A DNA stretch of 64,000 nt, from assembly GCA_021794015.1 (NCBI GenBank), contig JAJYRQ010000019.1, positions 1 through 64,000 on the forward strand, written 5' to 3'. Origin of the DNA: Deltaproteobacteria bacterium (GTDB taxonomy: Bacteria > Desulfobacterota > Binatia > Binatales > Binataceae). Below are positions 7,177 through 14,634 of the stretch, piece by piece; within the stretch, counting starts at the first letter, position 1, and every line of letters starts with the position of its first letter. Under the pieces are notes generated by a model. It saw nothing but the letters and a program-made list of their open reading frames with translations. It was not told where the DNA came from and did no database searches. The position numbers were made by a program, and so were the translations under genes.

Positions 7177-7734
7177 TCACTGCAAAGCAGGCGGCTCACC
7201 GGCGCCCGGCGCGCGGAAAAGCGGCGCCAGCAGGGCAAAACTCTCCCCGAGCTGTTGCGACAGCACCTTGGTCGCGCTCACCACCGGCATAAAGTTCGTA
7301 TCGCCCTCCCAGCGCGGGACCACGTGCCAGTGAAAATGGCCCGCAAAGCCCGCGCCGGCAACCGCTCCGATGTTGGCGCCCACGTTAAACCCGTCGGGCA
7401 ACAGCGCTTGGCCGAGCCGCTTGACCGCCAGGGCGACCAGCTCGGCCAGCGCTTGGCGCTCCTCGCGGCGCAGAAGCTCGGGCGAGGCCAGGTGGCGGCG
7501 CGGCGCAATCATCAGGTGGCCGTTGTTATAAGGGTAGCGATTCAACATGACCGACGCAGCCGAATCCGCCCAAAGCACCAGCCGGGCGCGCTGCGTCTTC
7601 TCACTGAGCCGGCCGAAGCAGAAGATGCACGGCCGCCTGCCGCGGCGTCCGGCCCGGACATAGGCGGCGCGCCACGGGGCCCAAAGCCTGGCCGGGCCTG
7701 TCCCCGCTGTCTTCTCAGCCGAGCGCTTCGCCAT
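7177..7734 (-). CDS. HIT-family nucleotide hydrolase/phosphorylase
   Basis: 185 residues. It has the histidine triad HFHWHVV (H133, H135, H137), the preceding GHLMIAPRRH and NVGANIG segments, and a CIFC pair at residues 36-39 as in the Ap4A phosphorylase-like HIT branch. Expected to cleave dinucleoside polyphosphates or AMP conjugates in the cytoplasm. ATG at 7734 overlaps the end of ihfB by 20 bases. The ATPase gene follows after 3 bases, so it is inside the operon. Substrate not predictable. Confidence 0.85.
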   Translation of the reverse strand: MAKRSAEKTAGTGPARLWAPWRAAYVRAGRRGRRPCIFCFGRLSEKTQRARLVLWADSAASVMLNRYPYNNGHLMIAPRRHLASPELLRREERQALAELVALAVKRLGQALLPDGFNVGANIGAVAGAGFAGHFHWHVVPRWEGDTNFMPVVSATKVLSQQLGESFALLAPLFRAPGAGEPPALQ

Positions 7735-8017
7735 GGTCGCGGCCGTTCAGTTCAGTTTTCAACTCCTTGGCCGCGCGAAAGAACGGCACCTTTCTTGCGT
7801 CCACGACGAGCGCCGCGCCGGTCCTGGGGTTGCGTCCCGGCCGCGCGCTCCGCTCTCTCACGCCGAAACTGCCGAAACGGCGGATTTCGACCCGCCCGCC
7901 GCCGGCCAACGCCGCCGTCAGCGCCACGAAGACCCGGGCGACCAGCGCCGCGCACGCGGCGTGCGAGAGCTCGGGGCTGCACGCGGCAACCCCCTCGATG
8001 ATCTCCCGTTTGGTCAT
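7715..8017 (-). CDS. ihfB: Integration host factor beta-like / HU-family DNA-binding protein
   Basis: 100 residues from MTKREIIEGV, the characteristic beta-type IHF start. The beta arm segment VEIRRFGSFGVRERSARPGRNPRTG is intact. It bends DNA, probably as a dimer with another HU/IHF subunit. It lies directly downstream of rpsA, the same order as cmk-rpsA-ihfB in gammaproteobacteria, which supports the IHF assignment over generic HU. The frame begins with a GTG at 8032, but ATG at 8017 matches family length; neither has a clear ribosome site. The basic C-terminal tail (KELKTELNGRDHGEALG) is slightly longer than usual. Confidence 0.8.
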   Translation of the reverse strand: MTKREIIEGVAACSPELSHAACAALVARVFVALTAALAGGGRVEIRRFGSFGVRERSARPGRNPRTGAALVVDARKVPFFRAAKELKTELNGRDHGEALG

Positions 8018-8053
8018 CGGCCGGTTGCGCACGCGAAGGCCGGGCGGCGGTCT

Positions 8054-9802
8054 TCAGCGCTGCGGTTCTTTCGCCTCGCGTACGGGGCGCTTTTCGTTTT
8101 CCTCGCGGTCCAGCCGCAGCTCTTCCTGGAGAATTTCGTCCAGCGACACCCGCGCCGCGTCCTGTTCGCGCTTGAGGTAGGCCTGCACCTCTTCGCGCTC
8201 TTCCACCGTCTTGAGCGCGCGGATCGAGAGGCCGATGCGCCGCTCCTTGAGATCGACCTGCGCCACCAGCGCCTCGACCTGGTCGCCGACCTTGAACAGC
8301 GCTGCCGGCTTGTCCACCCGCTCGGTGCTTAGCTGCGAGACGTGGATTAGCCCTTCGATCCCCTCCTCAAGTTCGACGAAGACGCCAAAGTCCGCCAGCG
8401 AGCTCACCCGGCCCGAAGCCTTGGTGTTGACCGGGTAGCGCTCGGCCACGGACAGCCACGGGTCGGAGCGAAGCTGCTTAATGCCGAGGCTGATTCGCTC
8501 CTGGCCCGGGTCAACCCCGAGCACGACGACCTCGACCTCTTCGCCCTTGCGGAACAACTCAGCCGGCGCCTTGGGCCGCTTGCTCCAGGAAAAATCCGAC
8601 TGGTGGACGAGCCCGTCGATTCCCGGCTGAATCTCAACGAAGATGCCGAAATCGGCCACCGACTTGACCTTGCCCTTGAGCCGGCTCCCGGTCGGATAGC
8701 GCTGCGCCAGTTCTTCCCACGGATTGGGCTCGGTTTGCTTGAGGCCCAGGGAGATGCGCCGGTTCGCCTCGTCCACCCCCAGCACCTGCACCTCGACCAG
8801 GTCGCCCGGACTGACCACCTTGGAAGGATGGACGTTGCGCTTGCTCCAGCTCATCTCGGAGACGTGCACCAACCCCTCGACCCCTTTTTCCAGCTCGACG
8901 AAGGCGCCGTAGTCGGTGACGCTCACTACCTTGCCCTTGAGCCGGCTTCCCGCGGGATAGCTCTCGGCCGCCTTCGACCAAGGGTCGGGCATGATCTGCT
9001 TCATGCCGAGCGAGACGCGCTCGCGCTGGGGGTCGTAGCGCAGAACAACCACCTTCACCCGGTCGCTCACGCGCAGCACCTCCGAGGGATGCTGCAGCCG
9101 GCCCCACGAGATGTCGGTGATGTGCAGCAGGCCGTCGAGCCCACCGAGGTCGATGAAGGCCCCGTAGTCGGTGATGTTCTTCACCACGCCTTCGAGAATC
9201 ACGCCCTCTTCCAGGACCTTAAGCGTCTGCTCGCGCAGCGAGGCGCGCTCCCGCTCGAGCACCACGCGGCGCGACACCACAACGTTGGCGCGGGCGCGGC
9301 TGAACTTCAGAATCTGAAAACGGCCGCGCTGTCCGATGTAACGGTCGAGGTTGCGCGCCGGCCGCAGGTCAACGTGCGAGCCGGGCAGAAAGGCGGGCAC
9401 TCCGATATCCACCTGCAGGCCGCCCTTGACCTTGCCGGTGATAACGCCTTCCACCGGGGCCTCGGTCTGGTGCGCCTTTTCCAGTTCGCGCCAGACCTTG
9501 AACTTTTCGGCCTTGGCGTGCGAGAGGGTGACGGTGCCGTTGTCGGTCTCGACCCCCTCGAAGTAGACGTCAACCGTGTCGCCTTCCTTGACCGCGGGTT
9601 TCCCCTCGCGGTCGAGGAATTCGGCCAGCGCAACCTCTCCCTCGCACTTGTAGCTGATGTCGATGATTACCCGGTCCCGGTCGATGGCCAGGACCGTACC
9701 GGTCAGTACGTCACCCGGGCGCGGCGCCCGCAGGCTCTGCCCCATCAGCGACTCGAAATCATTGCTTCCTCCGACCGTCTGTTCAGGCGCAACTCTCTCC
9801 AT
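8054..9802 (-). CDS. rpsA: 30S ribosomal protein S1
   Basis: 582 residues, the full length for a six-repeat S1. Six S1 (OB-fold) domains can be counted, at about 30-100, 115-180, 200-270, 285-355, 372-442 and 457-527. Domains 3-6 share the YGAF(I/V)(D/E)L...GL(L/V)H signature. It binds mRNA on the small subunit and helps initiation. The Lys/Glu-rich tail after 540 is unstructured. ATG at 9802 has GGGAAGG about 10 bases upstream; a TTG precedes it. It sits 64 bases after tyrA::cmk and 36 before ihfB, conserving the cmk-rpsA-ihfB order. Confidence 0.97.
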   Translation of the reverse strand: MERVAPEQTVGGSNDFESLMGQSLRAPRPGDVLTGTVLAIDRDRVIIDISYKCEGEVALAEFLDREGKPAVKEGDTVDVYFEGVETDNGTVTLSHAKAEKFKVWRELEKAHQTEAPVEGVITGKVKGGLQVDIGVPAFLPGSHVDLRPARNLDRYIGQRGRFQILKFSRARANVVVSRRVVLERERASLREQTLKVLEEGVILEGVVKNITDYGAFIDLGGLDGLLHITDISWGRLQHPSEVLRVSDRVKVVVLRYDPQRERVSLGMKQIMPDPWSKAAESYPAGSRLKGKVVSVTDYGAFVELEKGVEGLVHVSEMSWSKRNVHPSKVVSPGDLVEVQVLGVDEANRRISLGLKQTEPNPWEELAQRYPTGSRLKGKVKSVADFGIFVEIQPGIDGLVHQSDFSWSKRPKAPAELFRKGEEVEVVVLGVDPGQERISLGIKQLRSDPWLSVAERYPVNTKASGRVSSLADFGVFVELEEGIEGLIHVSQLSTERVDKPAALFKVGDQVEALVAQVDLKERRIGLSIRALKTVEEREEVQAYLKREQDAARVSLDEILQEELRLDREENEKRPVREAKEPQR

Positions 9803-9866
9803 CAATATGGAACCTTCCCGGGGGATTCACGGTTTCGCCGGGCGCACAACCGTGCTACGAGGCTTT

Positions 9867-11420
9867 CTAGTCTGGCACGATTGGCCCTCCCTCTTCAACC
9901 CATTGGCGCATCCGCTCGACCACCTCCTCCAGGGCGAGGTTTGTGGAATCGATGACGATTGCGCCGTCGGGCGTCCTAAGAGGCGCCAGCTCTCGTCCGG
10001 AGTCGCGCCGGTCGCGTTCGACCAACCCTGCCAGGACCTCCTCGCACGTGGTCTTAACGCCTTGTGCCGCAAGCTCGCGGTAACGGCGCTCGGCGCGGGT
10101 TTGCACGTCCGCATCCAGGAAAAACTTCCAGTCCGCGTCGGGAAACACGACGCTTCCCATGTCGCGCCCTTCGGCCACGGCCCCTTTTTCGTCCACCGCC
10201 TGGCGCTGTAGCCGGCGCATCCGCGCTCTTACCACCCCCAGCACGGAGAGGCGCGAGGCCAGCTCGCCGATCTCCGGCCTTGCCAGCTCCTGCGTCACGT
10301 CCCGGCCGTCGAGCAGGCAGCGCCCGGCGCGAAACTCAAGCGCGGCTGCGTCAAGCAGCTCGCCCATGCGCCGCTCGCAGTCGGGGTCGTCGGCCGCCAC
10401 GCCGTGCTGGGCGGCGGCCAGCGCCGCCGCCCGGTACATCGCGCCCGTAGTTAGCAGGCCCACGCCCAGCACCTCGGCCAGCTTCGTTGCCACGCTGGTC
10501 TTGCCCGCGGCAACCGGGCCGTCGATGGTAATCACCGGGCCTTTGCGGCCGGCGCCGGCTTCCAGGCGCTGGCGCATTGCGCGGCCCTGCTCGAAAAGCG
10601 CCTCAAGCCGCTCCGGCCGGCCGCCGCGTACCGCGTCTTCCAGTTCCCCCAGCGCGACCCGGTAAGCCGCCAGCGTCTCGGCGATCGCATCGCGATTGGC
10701 AAGGCATATGTCGCGCCACATCGCGGCCGGGGACAGCGCCAGCCGGGTCATGTCGCCCAGCCCGCCCGCCCCGTAGCCGGCCGCCCATACCCCGTCGACC
10801 TGGCGGTCGTTGAGCAGGCCCGCCAGCGCCGTCGAGGCGAGCTGCGGCAGATGGCTTGCCCAGGCCAGAAGCCGGTCGTGGCGCTCGGCATCCATCCGTT
10901 CGACCCGCGCGCCTAAGGAGCGCCAAAGCGTCTCGACCCGCTCCAGGGCGTCGGCGCTGCTGCGCGCCGAAGGCGTGACGATCACGCGCCGGCCGGCGAA
11001 CAGTCCTTTGCGTGCCGCCGCCGCGCCGCTTTGCTCGCGGCCGGCCACCGGATGCGCCGCGACCAGCGCCATGGCGGGTCCCAACAGCGGCTCGAGCTGC
11101 GCGATGACCCGGCCCTTCACGCTGCCGACGTCGGTGACGACCGCTGCCGGCGCCAGGTGCGCCGCCATGAGCCTAAGCGTATCGGCCATCGCGCCTACCG
11201 GCACCGCCAGCACGCAGAGGTCGGCGCCGCGCGCCGCCTCGGCCGGGTCAAGCGCCGCCTCGTCGACGATCCCGCGCCCAAGCGCAACATCCAGGTTTCC
11301 CGCCGAGCGACCCCAACCGGCCACCCGCTCGACCAGCCCCCGACCGCGCAGCTCAAGGGCCAGCGAACCCCCGATGAGGCCCACACCGCAAACCAGCATA
11401 CGCCTGAAAAGTGCGCTCAC
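9867..11420 (-). CDS. Fused prephenate dehydrogenase - cytidylate kinase
   Basis: One uninterrupted 517-residue frame encodes two enzymes. Residues 1-288 are TyrA: NAD-binding GVGLIGGS (12-19), the HPVAGREQSG catalytic histidine segment (123-132) and the C-terminal helical part with WRDICLANRD. After a short linker (AGAGRK) residues 295-517 are cytidylate kinase: P-loop GPVAAGKTS (301-309), TTGAMYR, GRDVTQELARPE, the CMP site EGRDMGSVVFPDAD (418-430) and the lid ERDRRDS. Both halves look catalytically complete. GTG at 11420 has GGAG seven bases upstream. In the related supraoperon of other proteobacteria aroA lies between tyrA and cmk; here it is missing and the flanking genes are joined. Confidence 0.93.
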   Translation of the reverse strand: MSALFRRMLVCGVGLIGGSLALELRGRGLVERVAGWGRSAGNLDVALGRGIVDEAALDPAEAARGADLCVLAVPVGAMADTLRLMAAHLAPAAVVTDVGSVKGRVIAQLEPLLGPAMALVAAHPVAGREQSGAAAARKGLFAGRRVIVTPSARSSADALERVETLWRSLGARVERMDAERHDRLLAWASHLPQLASTALAGLLNDRQVDGVWAAGYGAGGLGDMTRLALSPAAMWRDICLANRDAIAETLAAYRVALGELEDAVRGGRPERLEALFEQGRAMRQRLEAGAGRKGPVITIDGPVAAGKTSVATKLAEVLGVGLLTTGAMYRAAALAAAQHGVAADDPDCERRMGELLDAAALEFRAGRCLLDGRDVTQELARPEIGELASRLSVLGVVRARMRRLQRQAVDEKGAVAEGRDMGSVVFPDADWKFFLDADVQTRAERRYRELAAQGVKTTCEEVLAGLVERDRRDSGRELAPLRTPDGAIVIDSTNLALEEVVERMRQWVEEGGPIVPD

Positions 11421-11518: not shown

Positions 11519-12640
11519 CTACAACACCCGGCTCAGCGCCTCGATGAGGCGGCGGTTCTCTTCCTCGAGGCCGACGCTTATCCGCACGTGGCGCGGGAAC
11601 CCGTAGCCGTCCATCGGCCGCACGATCACGCCCCGGCGCATCAGCCGTTCAAAGACCGCGCGGCCGTCGCCCACCTCGACCAGAATGAAATTAGCCTGCG
11701 TGGGAACGAAGCCGAGCCCGAGGCGCCTTAACTCGCGCTCGAGAAAGGCGATCCCCTCGCGGTTGACCTTAAGCGTTTTTTCGACATGCTCGCGGTCGTC
11801 CATCCCGGCCAGGGCCGCGGCCTGCGCCAGCGAGGTGAGGTTGAACGGCTGGCGCACCTTGTCGAGCAGGCGCACGATATCGGGCCGGGCCACCGCGTAG
11901 CCGACGCGCAGGCCGGCCAGCCCGAAAATCTTGGAGAAAGTGCGCAGCGTCACCAGCATCCGCGCCCCGTCGTGGTCCTCGAGCGAATCGGGATAGTCCG
12001 GGTCGCGCACGAAGTCGAAATACGCCTCGTCGGCCACGATCACCACCCGCTGCGGCACCCGCTTAAGGAACTCGCGCCACTGCCCGCGCCGGTAAAAGGT
12101 GCCCGTCGGATTGTCCGGGTTGTCGAGAAATACCAGCGCGGTCTGTGCGTCGATCGCCGCGGCGATCGCCTCGAGGTCGTGCGAAAAGTCCTCGCGCAGC
12201 GCCACCGACTTGAGCGCCGCCCCCACCGCGGCCGCCGCCAAACGGTAAATGACGAAACTGTGGTCGGCGGCAAGCGCGTTAAGTCCCGGCCTCAGGAACA
12301 GCAGCGCCAAAAGGTTGATGATCTCGCACGATCCGGAACCCAGAAAAATATGCTGCGGGCTAAGCCCGTGGCGGGCCGCCACCTTGTTCCTCAAAAAGTA
12401 GGAGCCGCCGTCCGGATAACGGTTTAGCGAGGCCAGCTCGCGCCGGATCGCCTCGAGCGCCAGCGGCGAGGGGCCAACCGGGTTTTCGTTCGACGCCAAC
12501 TTGACCGCCGAACTGACCCCCAGCTCGCGCTCGACCTCTTCGATAGGCTTGCCCGGCTCGTACGGCCGAATCGCGGCAACTGACGGCAGAACCAACTCGT
12601 CGGCAGTCAACACGGTTGACGGCCCAGCACGCTTATCCAC
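11519..12640 (-). CDS. hisC: Histidinol-phosphate / aromatic aminotransferase
   Basis: 373 residues, fold-type I PLP enzyme. The SNENPVGPSP substrate segment, NPDNPTGT, DEAYFDF and the PLP lysine in TFSKIFGLAGLRVGY are all present. Position between pheA and tyrA indicates it also, or mainly, transaminates prephenate, phenylpyruvate or hydroxyphenylpyruvate, as known for the HisH-beta type aminotransferase of this supraoperon. GTG at 12640 overlaps the pheA stop by 8 bases (GTGGATAA), so the two are coupled. A 98-base spacer to tyrA::cmk holds no recognised feature. Confidence 0.93.
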   Translation of the reverse strand: MDKRAGPSTVLTADELVLPSVAAIRPYEPGKPIEEVERELGVSSAVKLASNENPVGPSPLALEAIRRELASLNRYPDGGSYFLRNKVAARHGLSPQHIFLGSGSCEIINLLALLFLRPGLNALAADHSFVIYRLAAAAVGAALKSVALREDFSHDLEAIAAAIDAQTALVFLDNPDNPTGTFYRRGQWREFLKRVPQRVVIVADEAYFDFVRDPDYPDSLEDHDGARMLVTLRTFSKIFGLAGLRVGYAVARPDIVRLLDKVRQPFNLTSLAQAAALAGMDDREHVEKTLKVNREGIAFLERELRRLGLGFVPTQANFILVEVGDGRAVFERLMRRGVIVRPMDGYGFPRHVRISVGLEEENRRLIEALSRVL

Positions 12641-13748
12641 CGGTCCACCTGGCTTCAGGATACGATCCGAGAACCTTCAAAAAAAGGGCGCGCGCCGCCA
12701 TCGCGCCGAGCGCCCGCTTGAGCCTTGTATCCTGCCGATGGCCGGCAAGGTCGGCAAAGAAAAGATACTCCCACGGGCGCCCGCGCAGCGGACGCGATTC
12801 CAGCTTCGAGACGTTGACCCGGTTGCGCGCCAGCACCGCAAGCACGCGATTGAGCGCGCCCGCCTGGTCCGGCACGGTAAACAGCACCGTCGTCTTGTCG
12901 CGCCCGGTGGGCGGCACCTCCCGCCGACCGAGCACCAAGAAGCGGGTCGTATTGTGCGCGAAGTCCTGGATGTTGGCCGCCACGACCTTGAGCCCGTAGG
13001 CCTCGGCCGCGGCTTCGGACCCGATCGCGGCGCATCCGGGCTCCTCTACGGCCCGCAGCGCGGCCACCGCGTTGGAGACCACCGCCTCGGTCTCGCAGCC
13101 CGCAAAATGCGCCTTGATGTAGTTGCGGCACTGGGCCAGCGACTGCTGGTGAGAGACCAGGCGGCGCACCCTAGCGGCGTCCCCATCGCGCGACATCAGT
13201 ACATGGCGAATCGGCAGCAACAGCTCTCCGGCGATCACCAGTTGCGTGTCAATGAGCTGGTCCAGGGTGAGTGCCACCGAGCCTTCGGTGGAATTCTCCA
13301 CCGGCACCACGCCGGCATCGGCGCCCCCGCCTTCGATCGCCGAGAAAACCTCGGCAATCGAACTTTGCGCGATGAAGACCGAGCTGCGGCCGAAGCGGCG
13401 CAGCGCCGCCTCGTGCGAGTAGGTGTGCTCCGGCCCGAGGTAGGCAACCCTGGGCGGCTGCTCCAGAGCGCGGCAGGCGGAAATTATCTCGCTGAAGATG
13501 CGCCGCAACTGCTCGTCGGAAAGCGGCCCGGGGTTGTCGGCGGTGGCCCGTTCCAAGACCGCCAACTCGCGCGCCGGCTGGTAAACGGCAACCCCGTTGC
13601 GCCGTTTGGTCCGGCCGATCCGGCCGGCCAGCCGCGCGCGGCGCGCCAGCAGCCGCTTGAGCGCAGCGTCGACTGCGTTGATCTGCTCCCTAAGCCGCCT
13701 TATGGTCTGCTCGGCGGTCGGGTTGCGGTTGGGCGCGGAGGTTTCCAC
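12633..13748 (-). CDS. pheA: Bifunctional chorismate mutase / prephenate dehydratase
   Basis: About 371 residues. Residues 1-85 are an AroQ-type chorismate mutase (RLREQINAVDAALKRLLARRARLAGRIGRTK). Then comes the prephenate dehydratase domain starting VAYLGPEHTYSHEAAL, with the NTTRFLVLG catalytic threonine motif, then an ACT regulatory domain with KLESRP, the usual Phe-feedback site. The open frame continues into accA, but GTG at 13748, 13 bases after the accA stop, gives normal length. Its ribosome site is poor, so coupling to accA translation is likely. Confidence 0.93.
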   Translation of the reverse strand: METSAPNRNPTAEQTIRRLREQINAVDAALKRLLARRARLAGRIGRTKRRNGVAVYQPARELAVLERATADNPGPLSDEQLRRIFSEIISACRALEQPPRVAYLGPEHTYSHEAALRRFGRSSVFIAQSSIAEVFSAIEGGGADAGVVPVENSTEGSVALTLDQLIDTQLVIAGELLLPIRHVLMSRDGDAARVRRLVSHQQSLAQCRNYIKAHFAGCETEAVVSNAVAALRAVEEPGCAAIGSEAAAEAYGLKVVAANIQDFAHNTTRFLVLGRREVPPTGRDKTTVLFTVPDQAGALNRVLAVLARNRVNVSKLESRPLRGRPWEYLFFADLAGHRQDTRLKRALGAMAARALFLKVLGSYPEARWTGG

Positions 13749-13761
13749 GACTTGCCAATGG

Positions 13762-14634
13762 CTACCCGCTCGGGCCGGAGTTTGCAACCGCTCCAGGCAA
13801 GAGAAAAGGCACACCCATCGCAGCAAATTTGCGCTGGCGCGCCCGCCGTAGCTTTTGCGGACCCAGCCGGGCAAGGCGCGCCAGATGCCGGCGCAGCACG
13901 ACGCCAAGCAGCCGGACGGCCGCCTCGGGGTCCGCCTGTGCGCCGCCGCCGGGCTCCGGCACGATCTCGTCCACGACGGCGAGCCGCAGCAACTCGGGAG
14001 CGCAAAGACCGAGCATCCCGGCCGCGCGCGCCACGTTTTCGGGCGTGCTCTCCCGCCACAGAATCGCCGCGCAACCCTCGGGCGTGATCACCGAGTAACA
14101 GGCGTTTTCCAGCATCAGGATGGCGTTGGCGACGCCCAAGGCCAGCGCCCCGCCCGAGCCGCCCTCGCCAACCACGCAACTCACCACCGGCACCTCGAGC
14201 CGCGCCATCAGCACCAGACAGCGCGCGATCGCCTCGGCCTGTCCTCGTTCTTCAGCACCCACGCCCGGCTCCGCGCCCTGGGTGTCAATGAAGGTGATCA
14301 CCGGCAGGCCGAAGCGCTCGGCCAGCTCGAACAGCCGAGCCGCCTTGCGGTAGCCCTCCGGATGGGGCCGGCCAAAATTGCGTTTGAGCCGCTCGGCCGT
14401 GGAATGGCCGCGCTGATGGCCGACCAGCGCAACCGGCTGCCTGCCGAAATAGCCCAGCCCCGCCACGATCGCCGGATCGTCGCGAAAACATCGGTCGCCA
14501 TGCAGCTCGAAGAAGCCCTGGCAAAGCCCGTTGATGTAATCGAGGGTCTGCGGGCGGGCCGGATCGCGAGCCAGCTTGACCCGCTCCCAGGCATCGCCCG
14601 TACTCTGCGCGCTCCGCTTCGCGCCAGCCGCCAT
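13762..14634 (-). CDS. accA: Acetyl-CoA carboxylase carboxyltransferase subunit alpha
   Basis: 290 residues. It matches the AccA core: WERVKLARDPARPQTLDYI, LHGDRCFRDDPAIV, GRPHPEGYRKAARLFELAERFGLPVITFIDTQGA and the GEGGSGGALALG oxyanion segment. It transfers carboxyl from carboxybiotin to acetyl-CoA with AccD, which is not in the window. It is about 30 residues shorter at the N-terminus than the E. coli protein, as in many other phyla. ATG at 14634 is three bases after miaA. Location inside an aromatic/translation operon is unusual but spacing is tight. Confidence 0.95.
   Translation of the reverse strand: MAAGAKRSAQSTGDAWERVKLARDPARPQTLDYINGLCQGFFELHGDRCFRDDPAIVAGLGYFGRQPVALVGHQRGHSTAERLKRNFGRPHPEGYRKAARLFELAERFGLPVITFIDTQGAEPGVGAEERGQAEAIARCLVLMARLEVPVVSCVVGEGGSGGALALGVANAILMLENACYSVITPEGCAAILWRESTPENVARAAGMLGLCAPELLRLAVVDEIVPEPGGGAQADPEAAVRLLGVVLRRHLARLARLGPQKLRRARQRKFAAMGVPFLLPGAVANSGPSG

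Follow-up and report, generated by a model that had tools for sequence, protein, structure and literature searches.

In the 64,000-nucleotide stretch of DNA analyzed here (the window), a single open reading frame of 517 residues encodes two complete enzymes, first prephenate dehydrogenase (TyrA) and then, about five residues further on, cytidylate kinase (Cmk). The frame opens with GTG and closes with TAG (Table 1). An initial annotation had proposed an in-frame TyrA-Cmk fusion at this position, and the proposal is confirmed by the single frame, by the domains assigned to both halves and by the same arrangement in four further genomes. The fusion looks real, and we consider it likely that it is a genuine two-enzyme protein with independent halves that arose by loss of aroA and then by indels at a 4-nt overlap between tyrA and cmk.

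Two enzymes in one frame

Pfam assigned PDH_N to residues 20-174, PDH_C to residues 177-277 and Cytidylate_kin to residues 297-508, each above cut-off. Scores were 120.7 bits for PF02153 and 63.5 bits for PF20463 in the TyrA half, both exceeding their cut-offs, and 214.6 bits for PF02224 and 196.5 bits for TIGR00017 (cmk; cut-off 135.6) in the Cmk half. No additional regulatory domain was found with Pfam. An AlphaFold2 model of the fusion had a mean pLDDT of 93.3, and each modelled half matched solved structures of its own family: TyrA resembled PDB entries 4wji, 3ggg and 2g5c, and Cmk matched 2cmk in Foldseek with a TMt of 0.90.

Table 1. Position and basis of assignment of the fusion gene, its parts and neighboring genes in the window
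Feature	Coordinates	Strand	Basis
tyrA-cmk fusion gene	9867..11420	(-)	Single open frame; 55-57% identity to fused relatives across both halves
TyrA half, residues 1-290 (NAD(P)-binding and dimerisation domains, C-terminal helix 269-290)	10551..11420	(-)	PF02153, PF20463, NF005694 over 2-285, model helix
Linker, residues 291-295 (last TyrA helix to first Cmk strand)	10536..10550	(-)	AlphaFold2 secondary structure
Cmk half, residues 296-517 and stop	9867..10535	(-)	PF02224, TIGR00017, alignment to E. coli Cmk 1cke, Foldseek 2cmk
pheA (chorismate mutase-prephenate dehydratase)	12633..13907	(-)	NF008865 and chorismate mutase domain
hisC (histidinol-phosphate/aromatic transaminase), upstream gene	11519..12640	(-)	TIGR01141, 334.6 bits
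rpsA, downstream gene	8054..9805	(-)	Six S1 domains; collinear in relatives
ihfB/HU-type DNA-binding protein	7715..8032	(-)	PF00216

Alignment to the A. aeolicus enzyme (2g5c and 3ggg) located the TyrA motifs GxGLIGGS, DxGSVK, HPxAG and SHLP and the Arg of DMTR, and residues S100, H123, H190 and R226 are invariant among the fused proteins. The Cmk half carries the Walker A motif GPVAAGKT together with TGAMYR, EGRDMG and ERDRRDSGR. Aligned with E. coli Cmk (1cke), it has all of the nucleotide-binding residues of Walker A, (S/T)GxxYR, GRD and RDxRDxxR, which are also kept in the fused proteins. From general knowledge of the two families, we take these residues of both halves to be catalytic. Judged by motifs kept relative to solved TyrA and Cmk structures, both active sites appear intact, in agreement with the initial annotation. 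The fusion is the one TyrA match in the window genome, and a genome-wide profile search returned no second cmk above cut-off; the sole other match, at 20.3 bits, fell under the cut-off and was rejected as a stand-alone second copy. Both halves should be catalytically active, because catalytic residues are kept, each half is the sole confident copy of its enzyme and the cell can be expected to need CMP kinase. An automatic pipeline may name one activity only, although one of the two halves, the kinase, is presumably essential. In the plasmid records, no place covered 80% of the fusion.

A dimerising TyrA would bear one Cmk per subunit at its C-terminus, held by a very short linker, with each half predicted to perform its usual reaction independently. 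We found no evidence pointing to channelling or to shared regulation between the halves.

The junction between TyrA and Cmk

In the model, the final helix of TyrA closes at residue 290 and the opening strand of Cmk begins at residue 296. Some distant TyrA rows in the underlying alignment (A2) had tails misplaced onto the start of Cmk; the model kept its high confidence, but the modelled junction calls for some caution on that account. A remnant of aroA between the domains was rejected, as the linker comprises only about five residues and neither Pfam nor NCBIfam gave an AroA match at the junction. Linker lengths among fused genes differ by whole codons.

Evidence for an uninterrupted product comes from one of the fused relatives, G003. 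In its gene, no ATG, GTG or TTG is in frame between codons -60 and +6 relative to the point where the first Cmk strand begins, and both alternative frames are free of stops between codons -25 and +20. With no nearby start and no alternative-frame stop, no single indel in this region yields two ordinary genes, and by the reading of its sequence the G003 product must be made as a fusion.

The window copy is less restrictive, with an in-frame ATG at residue 282 and an in-frame GTG at residue 296. Shifting by one frame reveals a TGA that overlaps the latter in the manner of a GTGA overlap, and the fusion in this genome could accordingly be read as a one-base assembly or sequencing error, the real tyrA ending at the TGA that overlaps a GTG start of Cmk. 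The assembly is a draft in 61 contigs and the only one found for its genus. We nonetheless regard an error as quite unlikely. Cmk would then begin at its first strand, whereas 27 of 27 separate relatives measured have a start codon for it 5-14 residues, mostly 6, before that point. Moreover, GTGA is the automatic outcome wherever Val-Ile is written GTG-AT, and this GTG also occurs in eight separate relatives, none of which depends on it as a start. Finally, the architecture recurs in four other genomes, of which G003 is inexplicable in this way.

In-frame start codons near the junction, present in both the window and G002, raise a second possibility, that the window gene yields the fusion along with free Cmk initiated at ATG 282 or GTG 296, in the region where Cmk of unfused relatives starts. 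G003 has no such start, which argues that free Cmk is dispensable in fused lineages, and we think a second product improbable.

Distribution, operon context and origin

Among 41 genomes of the window's family, five carry the fusion, and these fall in three genera: that of the window (G000), that of G002, and that of G003, G017 and G050. The G050 gene runs off its contig about 30 residues past the junction, the rest of cmk being on another contig. Separate tyrA and cmk on one contig were found in 33 genomes; the remaining three comprise one with fragments and two without a match. In other sampled genomes of the class, no match spanned both halves. Hence tyrA and cmk are not separate in all relatives of the window, four other family genomes also being fused.

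In 24 of 30 separate pairs examined, the start of cmk overlaps the stop of tyrA by 4 nt in the -1 frame (ATGA or GTGA). This overlap sits a few codons upstream of the position of the fusion linker. All four complete fused genes show the same phase shift relative to it, with gap values of 22, 25, 28 and 31, each equal to 1 modulo 3.

A synteny check bore out the gene order pheA-hisC-tyrA-cmk-rpsA-ihfB given in the initial annotation, with aroA the sole missing member of the supraoperon. By their listed starts, pheA and hisC overlap by 8 nt (12633-12640), which makes for a compact operon on the upstream side of the fusion as well. The window genome retains an intact aroA on another contig (G000:C16:27206-28480; TIGR01356, 424.7 bits), and its other EPSP-type gene is murA, for a total of one aroA and one murA; genome-wide loss of aroA was therefore rejected. 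The description of the gene as a fusion with loss of aroA holds in that aroA is out of the operon, but the loss is not tied to the fusion, being family-wide (including the 33 genomes with unfused genes), and aroA persists elsewhere. Six outgroup genomes of the class have a tyrA-cmk gap of 1.33-1.45 kb, and aroA occupies it. In contrast, family genomes with separate genes have a tyrA-cmk gap of 15-189 nt with no aroA inside, indicating that aroA left the operon before any fusion.

The relocated AroA of the family forms a clade apart from the in-operon AroA of most of the class (33-35% identity) but clusters with the protein that one other family, represented by G025, keeps in the operon (54% identity; support of 93 in a quick tree). 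This topology suggests an older replacement of AroA followed by relocation in the window's family. Both the relocated protein (L001 1474-2751) and the in-operon G025 protein (L219 6984-8225) are closer to the Betaproteobacterial type (38-45%) than to the AroA found elsewhere in the class (33-35%).

Phylogenetic analysis favored two origins of the fusion. In a PheA+HisC+RpsA tree, G002, G003, G017 and G050 form one fully supported clade with the window elsewhere, and a single clade of all five fused genomes was rejected (p-AU 0.0105), a rejection that rests on one marker set and involves a long branch for the window lineage. A TyrA+Cmk tree also splits the window from the other fused genomes, though here a single clade was allowed (p-AU 0.153). 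One common origin for the fused genes is thus disfavored, and the fusion probably arose once in the window genus and once in the ancestor of the two other genera.

These data fit a two-step route. In the family ancestor, aroA would have dropped out of its place in the operon, so that tyrA and cmk came to overlap by 4 nt (ATGA/GTGA). Overlapping gene pairs are translationally coupled (PMC10666635), and translation of tyrA and cmk would already have been coupled before fusion. Later, probably in two lineages and in one at the least, small indels at the overlap may have abolished the stop of tyrA and put cmk in the same frame. Any benefit would lie in making both enzymes at a fixed 1:1 ratio in a single pass of the ribosome. 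The family contains unfused, overlapping and fused relatives side by side, making the path from neighboring genes to a 4-nt overlap and on to a single protein traceable.

The initial annotation saw in the fusion a link between tyrosine synthesis and pyrimidine nucleotide supply, a claim that we find unsupported, since prior adjacency with a 4-nt overlap is enough to explain the event. In its adaptive form, the idea is that CMP kinase, once tethered, is modulated by the state of tyrosine or prephenate, or the other way round, so that the supply of aromatic amino acids and that of pyrimidine nucleotides are coordinated. The probable double origin of the fusion, its retention across two genera of one clade and a linker short enough to keep the domains close together are all in keeping with such a role. 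However, 33 family genomes manage without the fusion, tyrA and cmk were already adjacent and mostly overlapping, the two enzymes have no common substrate, and the protein has no extra regulatory domain detectable with Pfam. Neighbors in the same operon also fuse elsewhere in the class, as TyrA-AroA in G028. We consider adaptive coordination very unlikely. Highly improbable, too, is a functional tether selected twice, in which TyrA ligands (prephenate, tyrosine or NAD(P)) alter CMP kinase output or Cmk shapes TyrA; if true, it would be a hard-wired link of aromatic amino acid and pyrimidine supply. Overlapping pairs are enriched for subunits of one complex (PMC10666635), which leaves room for a real TyrA-Cmk interaction. 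Most likely, the fusion is due to the pre-existing gene overlap and not to linked pathways, a warning that gene fusion is not to be taken as evidence of functional linkage.

Relation to known fusions

The initial annotation knew of no TyrA-Cmk protein, and we likewise found none described in the family libraries or in the literature searched, which covered few subscription papers and yielded only TyrA synteny work or unrelated papers for the pair. No NCBIfam model among those listed spans both halves. The bifunctional models for TyrA-AroA, AroA-Cmk, PanC-Cmk and Cmk-Der gave matches to one half only, far under their cut-offs.

The closest parallels come from the same supraoperon. Like the window protein, the TyrA-AroA fusions of pseudomonads and Acinetobacter (PRK14806/NF011381) have TyrA at the N-terminus and the next supraoperon gene as C-terminal partner. 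Their partner is AroA, of the same pathway, whereas the window protein has Cmk in that place and its operon lacks aroA. Model PRK14806 matched the window protein over positions 2-285 of 733 only, with 244 bits against a cut-off of 902. AroA-Cmk (PRK11860/NF008816) resembles the window fusion in having Cmk C-terminal and joined to its upstream supraoperon neighbor, which is AroA there and TyrA here; PRK11860 matched over positions 439-656 of 662 only, with 189 bits against a cut-off of 943.

In published TyrA work, TyrA-AroA fusions are described as recurrent and independent (PMC1173090). Two loci in our sample likewise hold tyrA and aroA in one open frame: L222 (5296-8814) of G028, from another family of the class, which is an independent TyrA-AroA fusion, and L096 (951-3125), on contig JADFXF010000047.1 of a Nitrospirae MAG. 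Both fit a recurrent, adjacency-driven fusion of neighboring genes. Fusions reported in the portions of that work consulted comprise AroQ-TyrA, HisHb-TyrA, TyrA-ACT, TyrA-REG, TyrA-AroQ-PheA-ACT and fusions with AroF (AroA) (PMC1173090). TyrA is a frequent partner there, as here; the catalytic partners so described come from aromatic synthesis, unlike Cmk, and cmk figures in the same portions as a syntenic neighbor of tyrA and not as a fusion partner (PMC1173090).

Joining of Cmk to a protein of an unrelated pathway, as in the window, has precedents in the NCBIfam models PanC-Cmk (PRK13477) and Cmk-Der (PRK09518), which differ from the window fusion in partners, order and operon. TyrA-Cmk adds a fusion pair absent from the family libraries searched. 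Within those libraries and the literature covered, it is a new pairing among fusions of a kind already known from TyrA-AroA and AroA-Cmk.
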